Assembly (NCBI GenBank): GCA_022823085.1
Contig: JAJDXV010000016.1
Coordinates: 1 to 64,000, forward strand
Reading direction: 5' to 3'
Origin: Candidatus Poribacteria bacterium
GTDB lineage: Bacteria > Poribacteria > WGA-4E > WGA-3G
Length of the DNA: 64,000 nt
The notes beneath the pieces were generated by a model. That model saw nothing but the letters and a program-made list of their open reading frames with translations, did no database searches and had not been told where the DNA came from. How positions within the stretch are numbered: position 1 is the stretch's first letter; the number at the start of each line of letters is the position of its first letter. The translations under genes were made by a program, and so were the position numbers. Below, in pieces: positions 4,491 to 62,991 of the stretch.

Positions 4491-7043
4491 ATCCCTGAAC
4501 CTTCGCTTATACTTCTTATTGGACCTTCAGGTTCAGGCAAATCCACTTTTGCACATAAGCATTTCAAACCGACTGAGATTCTTTCATCCGACTTCTGTCG
4601 AGGGCTTGTCTCTGACGACGAGACCGACCAGACCGCAACCAACGACGCGTTTGAAGTGCTACATTTCATCACCACAAAACGGCTCGCTGCCGGAAAATTG
4701 ACCGTCATTGACGCAACGAATGTTCAGGTCGAAGCACGGAAACCTTTGATCGCACTGGCGCGCGAATACCACTACTTAACCGTTGCCATCGTGTTCAATA
4801 TACCTACGAAACTCTGTCAAGAAAGAAACGAGGCACGCCCAGACCGCAATTTTAAACCGCATGTTGTCCGCCAGCAGAACCAACAACTTCGCCGTTCACT
4901 GCGCAGCCTCAAACGCGAAGGTTTCCGAAACTTCCTTTATGTAATGTCGACACCCGAAGCCGTTGATGCCATCCGTATCGAACGCCAACCGTTGTGGGTG
5001 AACCGCACGGACGAACACGGACCGTTTGACATCATTGGTGATATTCACGGCTGTTTCGATGAACTCATCGAATTGCTCAAAACCCTCGGTTATGAAATCT
5101 CAACGCAGTCAGACGGGAACACCGTCGTTGAACCACCACAGGGCAGAAAGGCGATCTTCGTTGGGGATTTCGTTGACCGGGGTCCAAAGGTCGCCGAAGT
5201 ACTACGCTTGGTCATGCAGATGCAAAGAACAGGCGCAGCGATCTGTATACCGGGGAATCACGACGTGAAACTTGTGCGTGCACTTCAGGGCAGAAACGTA
5301 AAGCCGACACACGGGTTAGCGGAATCGCTCGCGCAATTGGAAAACGAATCAACCGAATTCAAGACGCAAGCCGCAGAATTCTTAGATAATTTAGTGAGCC
5401 ACTACGTCCTTGATAGTGGAAAACTCGTCGTCGCGCATGCCGGAATGAAGGCAGAACTACAAGGTAGGGCATCCGGGCGCGTACGCGAATTCGCACTCTA
5501 TGGCGAAACCACAGGAGAAACCGATGAATTCGGCTTTCCGATTCGCGTCAATTGGGCAGACGAATATCGCGGTGCCGCAACGGTCGTTTATGGGCACACA
5601 CCAGTTACCGAACCGCAATGGATAAACCGAACAATCAACATCGATACGGGATGTGTCTTCGGCGGCAAACTCACAGCACTACGATACCCTGAAAGAGAAC
5701 TCGTATCTATCGCCGCACACCAAACGTATTATCAACCCATCAAACCACTTCTTGATAAAGCGAACGAACGATCCGCTGCCGAAACACACGCGTCCGACGA
5801 TGTCCTAAACATCGATGATGTACTCGGAAAACGCGTTATCAACACACGCTTACATCACAATGTGACAATCCGTGAAGAGAATACAATAAACGCATTGGAA
5901 GTGATGAGCCGTTTTGCTGTAAATCCCAAGTGGCTTATATACCTACCCCCAACAATGTCACCAACCGAAACGACAAACAGACAAGGGATGCTTGAACACC
6001 CAACCGAGGCATTCACTTATTATCGTAAACAAGGCGTATCCAAACTCATTTGGGAAGAAAAACACATGGGCTCCCGCGCTGTCGTTATTGTTTGCAGAGA
6101 ACCAGAAACCGCAAAAAAACGATTTGGTATCCCAGACGATACGCTCGGCATCTGTTACACACGGACAGGTAGACGTTTCTTTGAAGATAACGCAATTGAA
6201 ACCGAGGTGTTGAAACAGGTGAAACAAGCAATAGATAAAGCCAATTATTGGGAAACCCTCAATACAGATTGGGTCTGTCTCGACTGTGAACTCATGCCTT
6301 GGTCAGTTAAGGCACAGGAGTTGTTAAAACAGCAGTACGCCCCAGTAGGGACATCCGCGAGTGTCGCCCTCGGAGAAGCAGTCGCATCCTTAGAAACTGC
6401 TGCCGAACGCGGTATTGAGGTAGGCATCATATTAAATGACTATCGCCAACGTGCAGCAGCAGTAACCGAGTATATCAAAGCTTATCAGCAATACTGTTGG
6501 AACGTCCAATCTGTCGGCGATCTAAAACTCGCACCATTTCACCTACTCGCAACCGAAGGCACAGTGTACTTCGACAAAGACCATCTGTGGCACATGGAAA
6601 TCCTTAGCAAACTCTGTCAAAATTCTGACAACAACCTATTGTTCGCAACCGCCTACGGCGTAGTTGATGTGACTGACGACAAAAGCCAAACTGAGGCGAT
6701 CCACCGATGGGATGAACTCACCGAGCAAGGAGGTGAAGGCACGGTCATCAAACCCCTGGATTTTATTGTTCAAGGCAAGCGAGGATTGGTACAACCCGCA
6801 GTGAAGTGCCGAGGACGTGAGTACCTCCGGATAATCTACGGACCCGAATATACATTGCCTCAAAACTTAGCACGTCTCCGTTCCCGCGGACTCTCTCACA
6901 AACGCTCCCTCGCACTTCGAGAGTTTGCATTAGGTGTTGAAGCACTTCAGCGTTTCGTGCATCGTGAACCCCTATCCCGTGTTCATGAATGTGTTTTCGG
7001 AATTTTGGCACTCGAAAGCGAAGCCGTCGATCCCAGACTCTGA
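4374..7043 (+). CDS. pnkp: Pnkp: polynucleotide kinase-phosphatase-ligase for RNA repair
   Basis: The 889-residue protein has the three Pnkp domains in order. The kinase has the P-loop GPSGSGKST at residues 50-58. The binuclear-metal phosphatase has GDIHGCFDE near 222, GDFVDRGP near 263, PGNHD near 292 and YGHTP near 405. The ligase-like adenylyltransferase has the nucleotidyl-lysine motif EEKHMGSRA near 560. With Hen1 it heals and seals broken RNA ends. The first 36 or so residues are encoded by the repeated leader and are not expected in the family, where the protein usually begins a few residues before the kinase beta-strand. The ATG at 4374 is the only in-frame ATG upstream of the kinase, although an ATC at 4491 sits where the leader normally places the start. 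Confidence 0.93.
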   Translation: MSNTSQNSETQARNEMESNSKERNVSHKANTNEPQGKFKIPEPSLILLIGPSGSGKSTFAHKHFKPTEILSSDFCRGLVSDDETDQTATNDAFEVLHFITTKRLAAGKLTVIDATNVQVEARKPLIALAREYHYLTVAIVFNIPTKLCQERNEARPDRNFKPHVVRQQNQQLRRSLRSLKREGFRNFLYVMSTPEAVDAIRIERQPLWVNRTDEHGPFDIIGDIHGCFDELIELLKTLGYEISTQSDGNTVVEPPQGRKAIFVGDFVDRGPKVAEVLRLVMQMQRTGAAICIPGNHDVKLVRALQGRNVKPTHGLAESLAQLENESTEFKTQAAEFLDNLVSHYVLDSGKLVVAHAGMKAELQGRASGRVREFALYGETTGETDEFGFPIRVNWADEYRGAATVVYGHTPVTEPQWINRTINIDTGCVFGGKLTALRYPERELVSIAAHQTYYQPIKPLLDKANERSAAETHASDDVLNIDDVLGKRVINTRLHHNVTIREENTINALEVMSRFAVNPKWLIYLPPTMSPTETTNRQGMLEHPTEAFTYYRKQGVSKLIWEEKHMGSRAVVIVCREPETAKKRFGIPDDTLGICYTRTGRRFFEDNAIETEVLKQVKQAIDKANYWETLNTDWVCLDCELMPWSVKAQELLKQQYAPVGTSASVALGEAVASLETAAERGIEVGIILNDYRQRAAAVTEYIKAYQQYCWNVQSVGDLKLAPFHLLATEGTVYFDKDHLWHMEILSKLCQNSDNNLLFATAYGVVDVTDDKSQTEAIHRWDELTEQGGEGTVIKPLDFIVQGKRGLVQPAVKCRGREYLRIIYGPEYTLPQNLARLRSRGLSHKRSLALREFALGVEALQRFVHREPLSRVHECVFGILALESEAVDPRL

Positions 7044-7134
7044 AGTTTTTTAATGAAAATCACCGAAAATTGCAACGAACCTTACGAAATCCCTCTTTTG
7101 TAGAATAAACTGTAACGCATTTAGACATACCAAC

Positions 7135-8049
7135 ATGAAAATTCACTTAATACAATACCTCTTATTTCTTTCTATCGGTTTAATAATAGGCACAGGTTGT
7201 ACAACGCCAGATACCATCAATCATCTCCCATCCGAAGATGACACCGAGATCGTCCTTGAAGACTACCAACTCACCGAAAATGAAACATGGGAACCCGAGA
7301 AAACGTACATTATAAACGGGACTTTAGAAATCCCACAAGATACAACCCTCAATATTTCACCGGGGACCACCGTTAAATTTCGGAGAGACGCACGCCTCAC
7401 CGTCCAAGGTATCCTAAAGATTGGAACACCTTTAGCACAAGAACAGGTAACCCAACTCGTACATCTCACATCCGACAATATCGGACCGGCACCCGGTGAT
7501 TGGAACGGTGTTTTTTTTGATCACACACACGATCTCGAGAGTTTTATCAGAGGTGCTATTATAGAATACGCGACAGTCGCTTTGGATGTTAAAACAACCT
7601 CACCGACTATAGAAGAGTGTACGCTTCGGTTCAATGAGACCGCCATCGCTTTGGATGGGAGTGACGCGCACATCCATCACAACGATATTCTTGACAACAA
7701 TATCGGGATTAGCACAATCGGCCGTCAAACACGCCCGAGGATTGAAAAGAACAATATTGCTAAGAATGAAACCGGTATCCATTGTGAAAATGTTCAGTCT
7801 ACCATTGAACACAACAACCTGTACGCGAATATCTTCGCCCTCCGTCTGAATGTAAAGTTCGACCTAACGGTAGCCAACAATTGGTGGGGGAGTCCAGATC
7901 CTGTTGGAATAGCCAATGTCATTATAGATGGCGCTGACCCCGGATTAATTGCTAAACAAGTGGGCACAGTTCATTATGAACCGTTTGTGGAGACCCGAAT
8001 CGCCGACGCGGGTTTTCCATATCCGACGCTTCTCGATAGATTAAAGTAA
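7135..8049 (+). CDS. Lipoprotein with right-handed beta-helix repeats
   Basis: The N-terminus has a short charged part, a hydrophobic segment and a lipobox ending IGTGC, so Cys22 would be lipidated. After an acidic linker, residues 50-290 show the spacing of parallel beta-helix proteins with repeated turns (NDILDNNIGI, NNIAKNETGI, NNLYANIFAL) and the closing NNWWGSPDP motif common in NosD-like and surface carbohydrate-active proteins. No catalytic residues can be assigned. It is probably anchored in the outer membrane and may bind or act on polysaccharide, which fits the neighbouring glycan genes. Confidence 0.75.
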   Translation: MKIHLIQYLLFLSIGLIIGTGCTTPDTINHLPSEDDTEIVLEDYQLTENETWEPEKTYIINGTLEIPQDTTLNISPGTTVKFRRDARLTVQGILKIGTPLAQEQVTQLVHLTSDNIGPAPGDWNGVFFDHTHDLESFIRGAIIEYATVALDVKTTSPTIEECTLRFNETAIALDGSDAHIHHNDILDNNIGISTIGRQTRPRIEKNNIAKNETGIHCENVQSTIEHNNLYANIFALRLNVKFDLTVANNWWGSPDPVGIANVIIDGADPGLIAKQVGTVHYEPFVETRIADAGFPYPTLLDRLK

Positions 8050-8083
8050 TAGTCACATGCCGTAGGCTGTTCACAAGAGCCGC

Positions 8084-8170
8084 AAGCCCGTAATCGAATG
8101 GAGGGCGATTCTACGGAAAGGCACGTTTTTTTCACCAGCCTCCCTTATCGAACCGCAAGGAAATATAAAA
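8084..8170 (+). repeat. Leader element, copy before the polysaccharide deacetylase
   Basis: This stretch contains CGCAAGCCCGTAATCGAATGG, CTACGGAAAGGCACG and CGAACCGCAAGGAAATATAA, matching the leader upstream of pnkp and those at 25281 and 31318. AAGG lies ten bases before codon ATT at 8171, the position that carries ATG in other copies. Confidence 0.65.
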
Positions 8171-9052
8171 ATTCTTAAAAATATCATCGCAGTCCTCATC
8201 TGTTTGTCAGGCATACACATTCTTATTCGCGAATTCTTTTGCCGGAATCGAGTCGCCATCCTTATGTATCACGACGCAAAACCGGAGGTTTTCGCCAAAC
8301 ATCTCGACTATCTCTCGCTCCATTGGACGGTTATTTCACTCGATACTTTAGTTGCTGCCATCTACCAGAAGGATTTCTCACGAATGCCTGCAAAAAGCGT
8401 TGTAATTACAATCGACGATGGCCACGCCGGGAATATCGAACTTTTACCCGTTTTTAAACAACACCGTATCCGTCCGACGCTTTTTGTCTGCACACAGATT
8501 ATCAACACACATCGGCACTTTTGGTTCAAAATAGATGGGCAGTCCAAGGCGGAAAAAGAAAGACTGAAGCGGATCCCGAATAGAGAACGATTAGCATACC
8601 TGAAGCGGACGACTGATTTTGAACCTGAACACGTTTATCCAGACAGACAGGCACTAAGTATCACTGAAATGAAAGAGATGGAAGAGAATGTTGACTTTCA
8701 ACCCCATACACAGTTCCATCCGATACTGCCACACTGCACGGAAGCCGAATGTAAGCAAGAGATTATCGGAGGCAAGGTGGATTTAGAGAAACTTTTGGGG
8801 ATTGAATGCTGTCATTTCAGCTATCCGAACGGTAATTATACAGAACGCGAAATTGAAATCCTGAAAGCAAGTGGATTCCGATCGGCGCGCACGACGGTTA
8901 TAGGCTGGAATACACTTGAGACTGACCCCTATCAACTCAAGACGATTCCGATTAACGATGATGCCGGGTTCGCGTTGTTCCGCGCCCAACTTACAACAAT
9001 ACCCCAACGGCTTAATCAAGTACTGAATTCTTTATTCCGAAATGGTTTTTGA
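8171..9052 (+). CDS. Polysaccharide deacetylase (NodB-like), membrane-anchored
   Basis: The protein has the carbohydrate esterase 4 pattern: VAILMYHD near residue 34, the metal-binding TIDDGHAG near 80, FQPHTQFHP for the second metal-binding strand, and FSYPNGNY further on. The first Asp of TFDDG is conserved as TIDDG. It would remove N-acetyl groups from a glycan in the periplasm. Placing the start at ATT 8171 gives a good N-terminal membrane anchor (ILKNIIAVLICLSGIHIL) and the leader's ribosome binding site at the usual distance; the first conventional alternative is TTG at 8204, which would cut the hydrophobic segment in half. The start is therefore uncertain but the family is clear. Confidence 0.82.
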   Translation: MLKNIIAVLICLSGIHILIREFFCRNRVAILMYHDAKPEVFAKHLDYLSLHWTVISLDTLVAAIYQKDFSRMPAKSVVITIDDGHAGNIELLPVFKQHRIRPTLFVCTQIINTHRHFWFKIDGQSKAEKERLKRIPNRERLAYLKRTTDFEPEHVYPDRQALSITEMKEMEENVDFQPHTQFHPILPHCTEAECKQEIIGGKVDLEKLLGIECCHFSYPNGNYTEREIEILKASGFRSARTTVIGWNTLETDPYQLKTIPINDDAGFALFRAQLTTIPQRLNQVLNSLFRNGF

Positions 9053-35770: not shown

Positions 35771-35823
35771 TTTGTAGTCAATAGTCAAATTCACCGACAA
35801 TTTGTATGAGGAGGAATAAAACC

Positions 35824-36054
35824 ATGGAAGTGAGAATTGAATATTGCACCTCTTGAAACTATCAACCACGGGCAGCCAGTTTGGCAGATGCCTTAAAAGA
35901 GAAGTATGGTGCAGAAGTTGCGAATGTTGATCTCATTCCGGGCAGTGGCGGGGCTTTTGAAGTCTCATTAAACGGTACACTGCTCTACTCGAAATTAGAA
36001 ACTCGGCAGTTTCCAACAACAGAGCAGATCACAGCTGCAATAGACGCAGCGTAG
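35824..36054 (+). CDS. Rdx/SelW-like selenoprotein with a CxxU motif
   Basis: The frame is open from ATG 35824 to TAG 36052-36054 except for a TGA at 35854-35856. Reading TGA as selenocysteine gives 76 residues starting MEVRIEYCTSU and continuing NYQPRAASLADALKEKYG, then VDLIPGSGGAFEV and LLYSKLETRQFP. These are the conserved blocks of the Rdx (SelW/SelT/SelH) thioredoxin-fold family, where the redox site is CxxC or CxxU; Sec is residue 11, exactly at the second position of the motif. A hairpin fitting a bacterial SECIS lies just after the TGA. The gene has its own promoter, a strong ribosome binding site and an intrinsic terminator, so it is monocistronic. Conventional gene finders would miss it. 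Confidence 0.9.
35871..35892 (+). promoter_or_regulatory. Candidate bacterial SECIS hairpin of the Rdx selenoprotein
   Basis: GGCAGCCA (35871-35878) pairs with TGGC (35882-35885) and TGCC (35889-35892), with a GTT apical loop and an AGA bulge. The loop starts 22 bases after the UGA and begins with G, matching the published bacterial SECIS consensus of a loop 16-37 bases downstream with G in its first two positions. Confidence 0.65.
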
Positions 36055-36077
36055 TTTGGAAAACGTTTTTGAGATAG

Positions 36078-36108
36078 CGGAGGCTGCTATTGCATTGCCT
36101 CCGTTTTT
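36078..36108 (+). terminator. Rho-independent terminator of the Rdx selenoprotein gene
   Basis: CGGAGGC (36078-36084) and GCCTCCG (36097-36103) form a perfect seven-pair stem with a 12-base loop followed by TTTTT. It ends the selenoprotein transcript before the convergent lpxI gene. Confidence 0.85.
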
Positions 36109-37889: not shown

Positions 37890-39176
37890 TTAGACAGATG
37901 CCAATACGATTGACAATTCCGCTTCTGTGGCGAGTTCGTTTCCAACATAAACACGGCCTTCAATACGTGCAAGTCTACTCCGCAGTTGTGCAACCTCTAT
38001 TTCCAATCGAAGTTGATCCCCAGGGATGACGGCGCGTCGGAAAGTCGCCTTACTTATAGAGCGAAAATAACCGAGTTCTCCCTCTTTACCAATATCCCGA
38101 AGGACAAGCCAAGCGGCAAGTTGTGCTAACGCTTCAATCTGTAGCACGCCCGGCATGACTGGACGCGTCGGAAAATGGCCCTCAAAAATGGGTTCGTTGT
38201 AGGTCACATTCTTGATACCAACTGCTCGCTTTTTACTCTCATATTCAATGACTCTATCTACCATGCACATCGGATGTCGGTGCGGTAACACTTCGTAGAT
38301 GTCCATGACCTCAATAGGTTCTTGGACAGATGCACGTTCGAGGTGTCCCGCTTCAGCGAGTGCTTGCACAAACTCGGCGTGGAACGTATGTCCCGTCCGC
38401 ATCGCGATCACACGCGCCTTCGGTAGATGGCCAGCCAAATAGAGATCACCAATCAAATCCAAGATTTTGTGTCGCGCAAATTCATCATCAAATCGGAGCG
38501 GTGTACTCGGTTCACCCGCTGCATCAATAACAAGCACATTATCGTAATTCGCGCCTTTCCCGATACCGAGCGCCTTCAGGGCTTCGATCTCATTCTCGAA
38601 ACAGAAACTCCTCGCTGGCGCGATGTCGCTGGCATACAATTCCGGTGTTATCTCAAACGTCACTATTTGCGGTGTCGTTTGTGGGTGCGCGTAAACGAAC
38701 GTCACCTCTAAAACATCAGCCGGCAATAAAACAAGCTGCCTGTCGCCTGATGCGAGTGAAAACGGTTCCGTTACCTCAATCACGTGTCGCGGCGCGTCTT
38801 GCGAAACAAGACCTACCGTTTGAATATTTTCGACATAAGGTAGCGCACTCCCGTCAAGTCCAGGCGGTTCTGGCGCATCTAATTCCACTATGGCGTTATC
38901 GACACCGAGACCGCCTAAAGCGGAAAGGATATGTTCAACGCTACTAACCGTTGTGTCGCCACTACGTAAACTGGTACATCGTGGTAAAATGTCCGCCCAG
39001 CTCTCTGGGGAGACTTTCACTTCGGGCACGCCATCTATATCTACACGTCGAAAGACGATCCCCGAATCTTCAGGTGCCGGTTTCAAGGTTAATGTCACAG
39101 GTTGTCCTAACATTAACCCAGTTCCAGTCATTGTTATCTCGTCTCGAATTGTTTGCTGTGAATCTGCCTTTGCCAT
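37890..39176 (-). CDS. lpxC/fabZ: Bifunctional LpxC deacetylase - FabZ dehydratase fusion
   Basis: The 428-residue protein fuses two enzymes. Residues 1-280 are LpxC, with SVEHILSALGGLGVDNA, DGSALPYV and the zinc-site HKILDLIGD. Residues 285-428 are FabZ, with LPHRHPMCMVDRV containing the catalytic His, EGHFPTRPVMPGVLQIEALAQ containing the catalytic Glu, and FRRAVIPGDQL. LpxC commits lipid A synthesis while FabZ dehydrates 3-hydroxyacyl-ACP, the same substrate pool. The fusion is known from Bacteroidetes-type bacteria. A short version of the leader element precedes the ATG. The downstream genes are lpxA and lpxI. Confidence 0.95.
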   Translation of the reverse strand: MAKADSQQTIRDEITMTGTGLMLGQPVTLTLKPAPEDSGIVFRRVDIDGVPEVKVSPESWADILPRCTSLRSGDTTVSSVEHILSALGGLGVDNAIVELDAPEPPGLDGSALPYVENIQTVGLVSQDAPRHVIEVTEPFSLASGDRQLVLLPADVLEVTFVYAHPQTTPQIVTFEITPELYASDIAPARSFCFENEIEALKALGIGKGANYDNVLVIDAAGEPSTPLRFDDEFARHKILDLIGDLYLAGHLPKARVIAMRTGHTFHAEFVQALAEAGHLERASVQEPIEVMDIYEVLPHRHPMCMVDRVIEYESKKRAVGIKNVTYNEPIFEGHFPTRPVMPGVLQIEALAQLAAWLVLRDIGKEGELGYFRSISKATFRRAVIPGDQLRLEIEVAQLRSRLARIEGRVYVGNELATEAELSIVLASV

Positions 39177-61815: not shown

Positions 61816-62991
61816 ATGAGACAGATACTGGCCCCCTTCGCGCTTACACTCCTACTGTTCACAACATTGAGCTGCGGGACAGAAAATCCGGTTGAGGAAA
61901 CTGTGGAGGCTCTCCCGGCTGACACAGTCGCAACAGGTTCATTCTCTGGTAACATTGAATTAATCGATGGTGTAACTATCTACGTGCGTTTGTTGAAAGC
62001 CGGACAGATACTCGCGCAAGTTGAATTTGAAATGCACGGAGTGAAGGCAACAACAAGTACGAACGCGAATATCCATTCCTCTACAAAACAGGGGATTGGA
62101 CGTTATCAGCTTAAAGAAGCTGAACCCGGAGACTACACTGTCCAAATTTCGGCGAAAGGATACCAAACCACAGAACTGAACGTTGCCGTTATTCCAGAGC
62201 AGCGCGTTACACTTGACAAAGTGACGCTTGTGGCAGTGGAAACCCCTGTTTCACATCTGCGCGGTGTCTTAACGAACGAAACAACAGGTGAAGGGCTTGG
62301 GGGTGTCAGTCTCCAACTCACGGATAATGCAGGTAACATCTACGAAACACTAACAACAGCAACCGGTGTTTTCACCTTTGAAAATCTGCCAGTGCAGCAA
62401 TCCATGGCTTTGATGATCGCTCACGCCGGTTACGAAGCCAAAGAGGTGGCAGTCGATCCAATACCGGCAGATGAAACGTTAGAACTGACGGTCAAACTCA
62501 CGCCACTGCCGGAAGTGGAACAGCTGCCCCCCGGTCAAGGCTTAAGTATTGAAAGCCAAGCACCAGACTTTGCGTTACCAGATGGCAACGGCAAAGCGCA
62601 CAGCCTTGATGATTACGCGGCTGATGGAAATGTCGTCCTTATATTTTACCGCGGCGGCTGGTGACCGTTCTGCAGAACGCAACTCGGTGAGTTGCAACAG
62701 AACTATGCGAAGATTCAAGCTGCAGGCGCGGAACTCATCGCTATCAGTTCCGATAACGAAGGCGATACCAAACGGACGGTCCAAAATCATGGGCTTAAAT
62801 TTCCGGTACTTGCCGATAAGGACAGAGCCGTTATCAACACTTACAACGTCGTCGATCCTGGCAACAATCGGATAGCACGTCCTGCCGCCTATATCGTTCG
62901 CAAGAATGGAACGATCGCTTGGAAATCTTTGAATACCAAGGCTGCCCGTGTGCCGACAGCGCAAATCCTCACAGAATTGGATAAACTTTGA
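61816..62991 (+). CDS. Lipoprotein selenocysteine peroxiredoxin (UxxC) with regulatory-like beta domains
   Basis: The frame from ATG 61816 is open to TGA 62989-62991 except for a TGA at 62662-62664. Read as selenocysteine it gives 391 residues. A lipobox (LSC at residues 18-20) is followed by two carboxypeptidase-regulatory-like beta domains (about 50-120, and 150-225 with GVLTNETTGEGLGGVSLQL). A peroxiredoxin/AhpC-TSA domain starts APDFALPDGNGKAHSLDDYA; its active site reads FYRGGWUPFC, where cysteine homologues have FYRGGWCPFC. The remainder (LAQLQQNY-like helix, LIAISSDNEGD, FPVLADKD, RPAAYIVRKNG) is a complete PRX-like domain. A hairpin suiting a bacterial SECIS follows. Sec is residue 283. 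It probably reduces peroxides at the cell envelope. An alternative reading, two genes split at the TGA, is unlikely because the TGA occupies the catalytic residue. Confidence 0.9.
62679..62695 (+). promoter_or_regulatory. Candidate bacterial SECIS hairpin of the peroxiredoxin
   Basis: GCAACTC (62679-62685) and GAGTTGC (62689-62695) form a perfect seven-pair stem with the loop GGT. The loop begins 21 bases after the end of the UGA and starts with GG, which fits the bacterial SECIS consensus well. Confidence 0.75.

Follow-up and report, generated by a model that had tools for sequence, protein, structure and literature searches.

Does the short reading frame at 35824-36054 of the 64,000-nucleotide stretch of Candidatus Poribacteria DNA analysed here (the window) encode a selenoprotein, given that it is broken by an in-frame TGA? 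On the plus strand the frame runs from an ATG at 35824 to a TAG at 36052-36054 and, if the TGA is taken as selenocysteine (Sec), gives 76 residues, MEVRIEYCTSU(11)NYQPRAASLADALKEKYGAEVANVDLIPGSGGAFEVSLNGTLLYSKLETRQFPTTEQITAAIDAA*, with codon 11 as the sole internal TGA, as the earlier note had read it. We are close to certain, from the sequence comparisons described here, that this is a genuine selenoprotein gene, whose UGA at codon 11 would be read as Sec by the Sec machinery of the cell to yield an Rdx redox protein. The interpretation that the earlier note had given to this segment is supported, and the predicted decoding of the UGA is strongly supported by comparison. The features of the locus are the following:

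35809-35814, plus strand: ribosome-binding site AGGAGG, 9 nt upstream of the ATG (read directly from the sequence).
35824-36054, plus strand: predicted SelW-like (Rdx) selenoprotein gene, 76 aa, Sec at residue 11 (translation, PF10262, TIGR02174, NF041051, AlphaFold model).
35845-35856, plus strand: CxxU redox motif C8-T9-S10-U11 (translation; C8 and residue 11 invariant in the relatives aligned).
35854-35856, plus strand: putative UGA selenocysteine codon (TGA in 78/78 Poribacteria genes and in all of the best 80 of 454 relatives).
35870-35893, plus strand: candidate bacterial SECIS-type hairpin with a GUU triloop at 35879-35881 (folds, covariation, AGT codon constraint).
36076-36108, plus strand: intrinsic-terminator-like hairpin followed by TTTTT, 3' of the stop codon (z-score -5.1).

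With the standard code, no plus-strand ORF of at least 60 aa was listed at these positions. Reading through a stop codon keeps the gene out of standard ORF lists, which agrees with the earlier claim that ordinary gene callers drop it. Of the expression signals that had been proposed around the gene, the ribosome-binding site is in place. The terminator is supported in part, by the hairpin and its run of T; a simple terminator scan reported none around the gene. The proposed promoter did not hold up: the consensus scan returned 4 promoter-like sites, counting both strands, where 1.5 +/- 1.1 were expected, just one of them upstream of the gene on the plus strand, and since this is chance level we claim no promoter. 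A search of the window against Rfam at the gathering threshold matched no family.

The family assignment was evaluated on the protein with the TGA read as Sec. PF10262 (Rdx) matched residues 2-74, across the TGA (E 1.1e-25; 90 bits against a cut-off of 22.6), covering positions 1-73 of the 74 in the profile; against the six-frame genome the same profile gave 1.9e-22 in an alignment containing one TGA. This agrees with the earlier reading that the TGA occupies the second redox position of the Rdx motif, which is the second position of CxxC/CxxU in PF10262, and that the residues past it follow the family pattern to the stop. The NCBIfam models TIGR02174 and NF041051 also matched above their cut-offs. 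A profile built from the Poribacteria members found the SelW-related protein 2fa8 at 8.9e-19 and mouse SelW (2npb) at 1.5e-9, and in the profile alignment the column of residue 11 holds Cys in 2fa8 and 3dex. The AlphaFold model (pLDDT 91) superposes on bacterial SelW-related crystal structures with a TM of about 0.9, its best PDB matches are SelW-related proteins, and it places the C8/U11 pair between a strand (residues 2-8) and a helix (14-31). Judged on this model, the product has the thioredoxin-like Rdx fold.

The product would be a 76-residue Rdx protein of thioredoxin-like fold with CxxU as its redox centre, in which Sec11 most likely attacks and Cys8 resolves, and a Sec11-Cys8 selenenylsulfide may be formed, with thioredoxin or a small thiol as its reductant. 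Family, motif and fold together suggest a role as a thiol-dependent oxidoreductase in peroxide or protein-thiol defence. We consider it unlikely, though more probable than the other alternatives weighed below, that the Sec gene is real and its protein acts instead as a selenium carrier, a sensor or a partner-binding protein: the survey of 2005 called the function of bacterial SelW-like proteins unclear, mentioning a reported glutathione interaction (PMC1088965), but redox chemistry is what a strict CxxU pair within a thioredoxin-like fold usually signals.

The neighbourhood was also considered as a source of functional partners. The gene lies between a gene with a TonB C-terminal domain, in diverged orientation, and lpxI, which converges on it. 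These neighbours persist within the genus and in sister genera, lpxI also in a few more distant genomes, and they are not found beside the gene in genus g4. This pattern suggests that what is shared is position, not function, and the neighbours were rejected as partners. In the same region, at 37890-39176 on the minus strand and adjoining lpxA and lpxI, LpxC and FabZ-type (FabA-like) domains are fused in one protein.

We then turn to whether the TGA marks a living gene or a damaged one. The SelW-like gene was found in 78 of 85 Candidatus Poribacteria genomes; all 78 were read individually, and each carries exactly one internal TGA within the matched domain, at the CxxU position, with Cys there in none. 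The nearest relatives belong to Candidatus Poribacteria as well, with 95% protein identity and the gene order kept. A survey of the contigs of prokaryote species gave 454 confirmed relatives, the best 80 of which all have TGA at this codon and span Poribacteria, Bacillaceae, Actinomarina, Deltaproteobacteria, Planctomycetes and others. This search was not biased to TGA, since one of its two patterns had been back-translated with Cys at residue 11, and Cys forms do occur among more distant relatives, namely those with solved structures. A search of viral contigs yielded no relative, and all relatives on plasmids share less than 60% identity. Past the TGA, the median dN/dS was 0.09 and the maximum 0.23 in 42 comparisons (kinship uncorrected), values indicative of purifying selection on the downstream sequence. 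Homologues with a stop followed by an unconserved tail, which would have spoken against the gene, were not what we observed. A former Cys gene broken by a stop, whether as pseudogene or through sequencing error, is therefore highly improbable: under the standard code the frame is indeed interrupted, but the same TGA recurs in 78/78 genomes, several of them single-contig assemblies, and dN/dS after it is low.

If the gene is a genuine selenoprotein gene, as we hold, the cell should possess the means to insert Sec, and all four of the genes whose presence had been suggested as a check were found in the same genome. On contig C89, selC, with anticodon UCA, lies at 6463-6552 and selB at 6598-8493, about 45 nt away on the same strand, so the absence of selB and selC that would have refuted the reading is not observed; selA and selD lie on contigs other than C89. 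The selD gene (locus L093, contig C43, 1500-3600) is itself a selenoprotein gene with an in-frame TGA, its product starting MTHKKIRLTATVKCAGU, with the CAGU motif near the N terminus. SelA and SelD would make Sec-tRNA(Sec), and SelB, presumably bound to the hairpin just past the UGA, would deliver it to that codon. When selB was called at a cut-off of E 1e-80, 74 of the 85 genomes had both selB and the SelW-like gene, 5 neither, 4 the gene only and 2 selB only (Fisher p 7e-5, relatedness uncorrected). The four gene-positive genomes with no selB match at that cut-off are all 80-81% complete, and the one good-quality genome without selB, G004 (95% complete), has no SelW-like gene either. Two genomes, G019 and G007, keep selB with no SelW-like match; the loss in G019 may be real, because that genome is 95% complete.

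The hairpin just past the UGA had been described as fitting a bacterial SECIS. In the window, 22 nt separate the UGA from the GUU loop, and the conserved core consists of the four pairs that close this loop (35875-35878 with 35882-35885), while the outer stem varies between clades. Taken by itself this hairpin is not unusually stable against shuffled sequences (z -0.84), and synonymous recoding gave p about 0.09; since stability in a single sequence is not significant, the case for the element rests on comparison, and there the earlier description stands. The 42 nt past the TGA fold into a hairpin with G within the first two bases of the loop in 75/75 distinct Poribacteria sequences, and the same hairpin with the loop G was obtained in 33/37 sequences from outside Poribacteria. 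Compensatory changes from C-G to T-A occur in 7 Poribacteria sequences and from C-G to G-C in 5 of the wider set, and core pairing reaches 0.78 against 0.13-0.49 for controls with slid partners. Where the loop is formed by a serine codon, that codon is AGT in 74/74 Poribacteria sequences, compared with 90/264 of the other serines in these genes; outside Poribacteria the corresponding figures are 25/25 and 2/115. Common descent is uncorrected in these hairpin and codon tests.

Other genes of this genome show the same use of TGA. A scan of the window for TGA-interrupted frames with redox motifs gave 33 candidates, of which the gene at 61816-62991 (plus strand) alone has family support; the others listed were judged by eye to be chance frames or 5' extensions and were set aside. 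The gene at 61816-62991 encodes a putative lipoprotein that combines CarboxypepD_reg domains with an AhpC/TSA domain at the C terminus (PF00578, E 1e-33). Its motif is GGWUPFC, with the putative Sec TGA at 62662-62664, and past this codon there is a perfect hairpin, GCAACUC-GGU-GAGUUGC. Across the genome there are 16 AhpC/TSA family matches, 7 with an internal TGA in the active-site region (WUPFC, TUGFC, WUPNS, TUPYC, GGUTTE, RGUTAQ and WUGCR), several of these genes having clear hairpins past the TGA. The six AhpC/TSA-type Sec genes outside the window (two at L182 and one each at L183, L184, L185 and L186) carry one active-site TGA each. Together with the SelW-like gene and selD, the genome has at least nine selenoprotein genes, a lower bound because the count was drawn from a few chosen families. 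Reassignment of TGA, or its reading as some other amino acid (e.g. Trp, Cys or Gly), is no more probable than a broken Cys gene, for while an in-frame TGA by itself leaves the residue unnamed, the SelW-like genes of genomes G011, G013 and G015 reach a TGA used as stop just past the family domain, the gene at 61816-62991 likewise stops at TGA (62989-62991), tRNA-Sec, selA, selB and selD are all in the genome, and TGA occupies redox-active positions in nine of its genes.

SelA and SelB have been reported as enriched in sponge symbionts, most symbiont bins carrying them and most reference genomes lacking them (PMC5649159); with the codon at 35854-35856 read as Sec, the SelW-like gene would be a near-phylum-wide client for that machinery. 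A genome with at least nine selenoprotein genes also bears on how symbionts handle oxidative stress. Going further, we tentatively propose, at somewhat less than even chances, that Poribacteria rely phylum-wide on a thiol and peroxide defence built on Sec, in which Cys forms seldom or never take over. This defence would comprise the Sec-only SelW-like protein, the Sec form of SelD and a set of Sec AhpC/TSA-type proteins. If true, this set would supply clients for the SelA and SelB enriched in sponge symbionts (PMC5649159).

As regards novelty, an open-access full-text search for Poribacteria together with selenoprotein found no paper, an absence that is not proof of novelty; with selenocysteine it found two, among them the one on SelA and SelB in symbiont bins (PMC5649159). 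SelW-like Sec proteins had been described in bacteria by 2005 at the latest. They were the most abundant selenoprotein family in the Sargasso Sea set (48 genes; PMC1088965) and in GOS (427 genes; PMC2398784), and a review of 2026 lists them with PF10262 and CxxU (PMC13188914). Given how long Sec-containing SelW-like proteins have been on record as a bacterial family, the novelty is below what the earlier note implied: the finding leaves knowledge of Sec insertion and of the nature of SelW-like proteins unchanged, and it amounts to a sound correction of the annotation, with nothing new in kind. The new part may be the phylum-wide record in Poribacteria.

Compared with the bacterial SelW-like selenoproteins already described (PF10262, TIGR02174), the Poribacteria gene belongs to the same family and has the same length and CxxU motif, and in both a bacterial SECIS, its small apical loop containing G, comes immediately after the UGA. 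What differs from that literature (PMC1088965, PMC2398784, PMC13188914) is the host phylum, Poribacteria being unnamed in the papers whose text was searched. NF041051 (SelTWH_Campy, SelT/SelW/SelH family (seleno)protein) gives a near full-length match at 91.2 bits, barely above its cut-off of 88, and its name suggests members from Campylobacterota. Mouse selenoprotein W (2npb) shares the Rdx fold and the family profile (E 1.5e-9; TM 0.72), but in eukaryotes the SECIS is located in the 3' UTR, whereas the Poribacteria hairpin is inside the coding region just past the UGA. Finally, the proteins 2fa8 of Agrobacterium and 3dex of Streptomyces have the same fold (TM about 0.9, rmsd about 1 A) and carry CxxC at the same alignment columns, with Cys at the position of residue 11, whereas the Sec form is the sole form found in Poribacteria.
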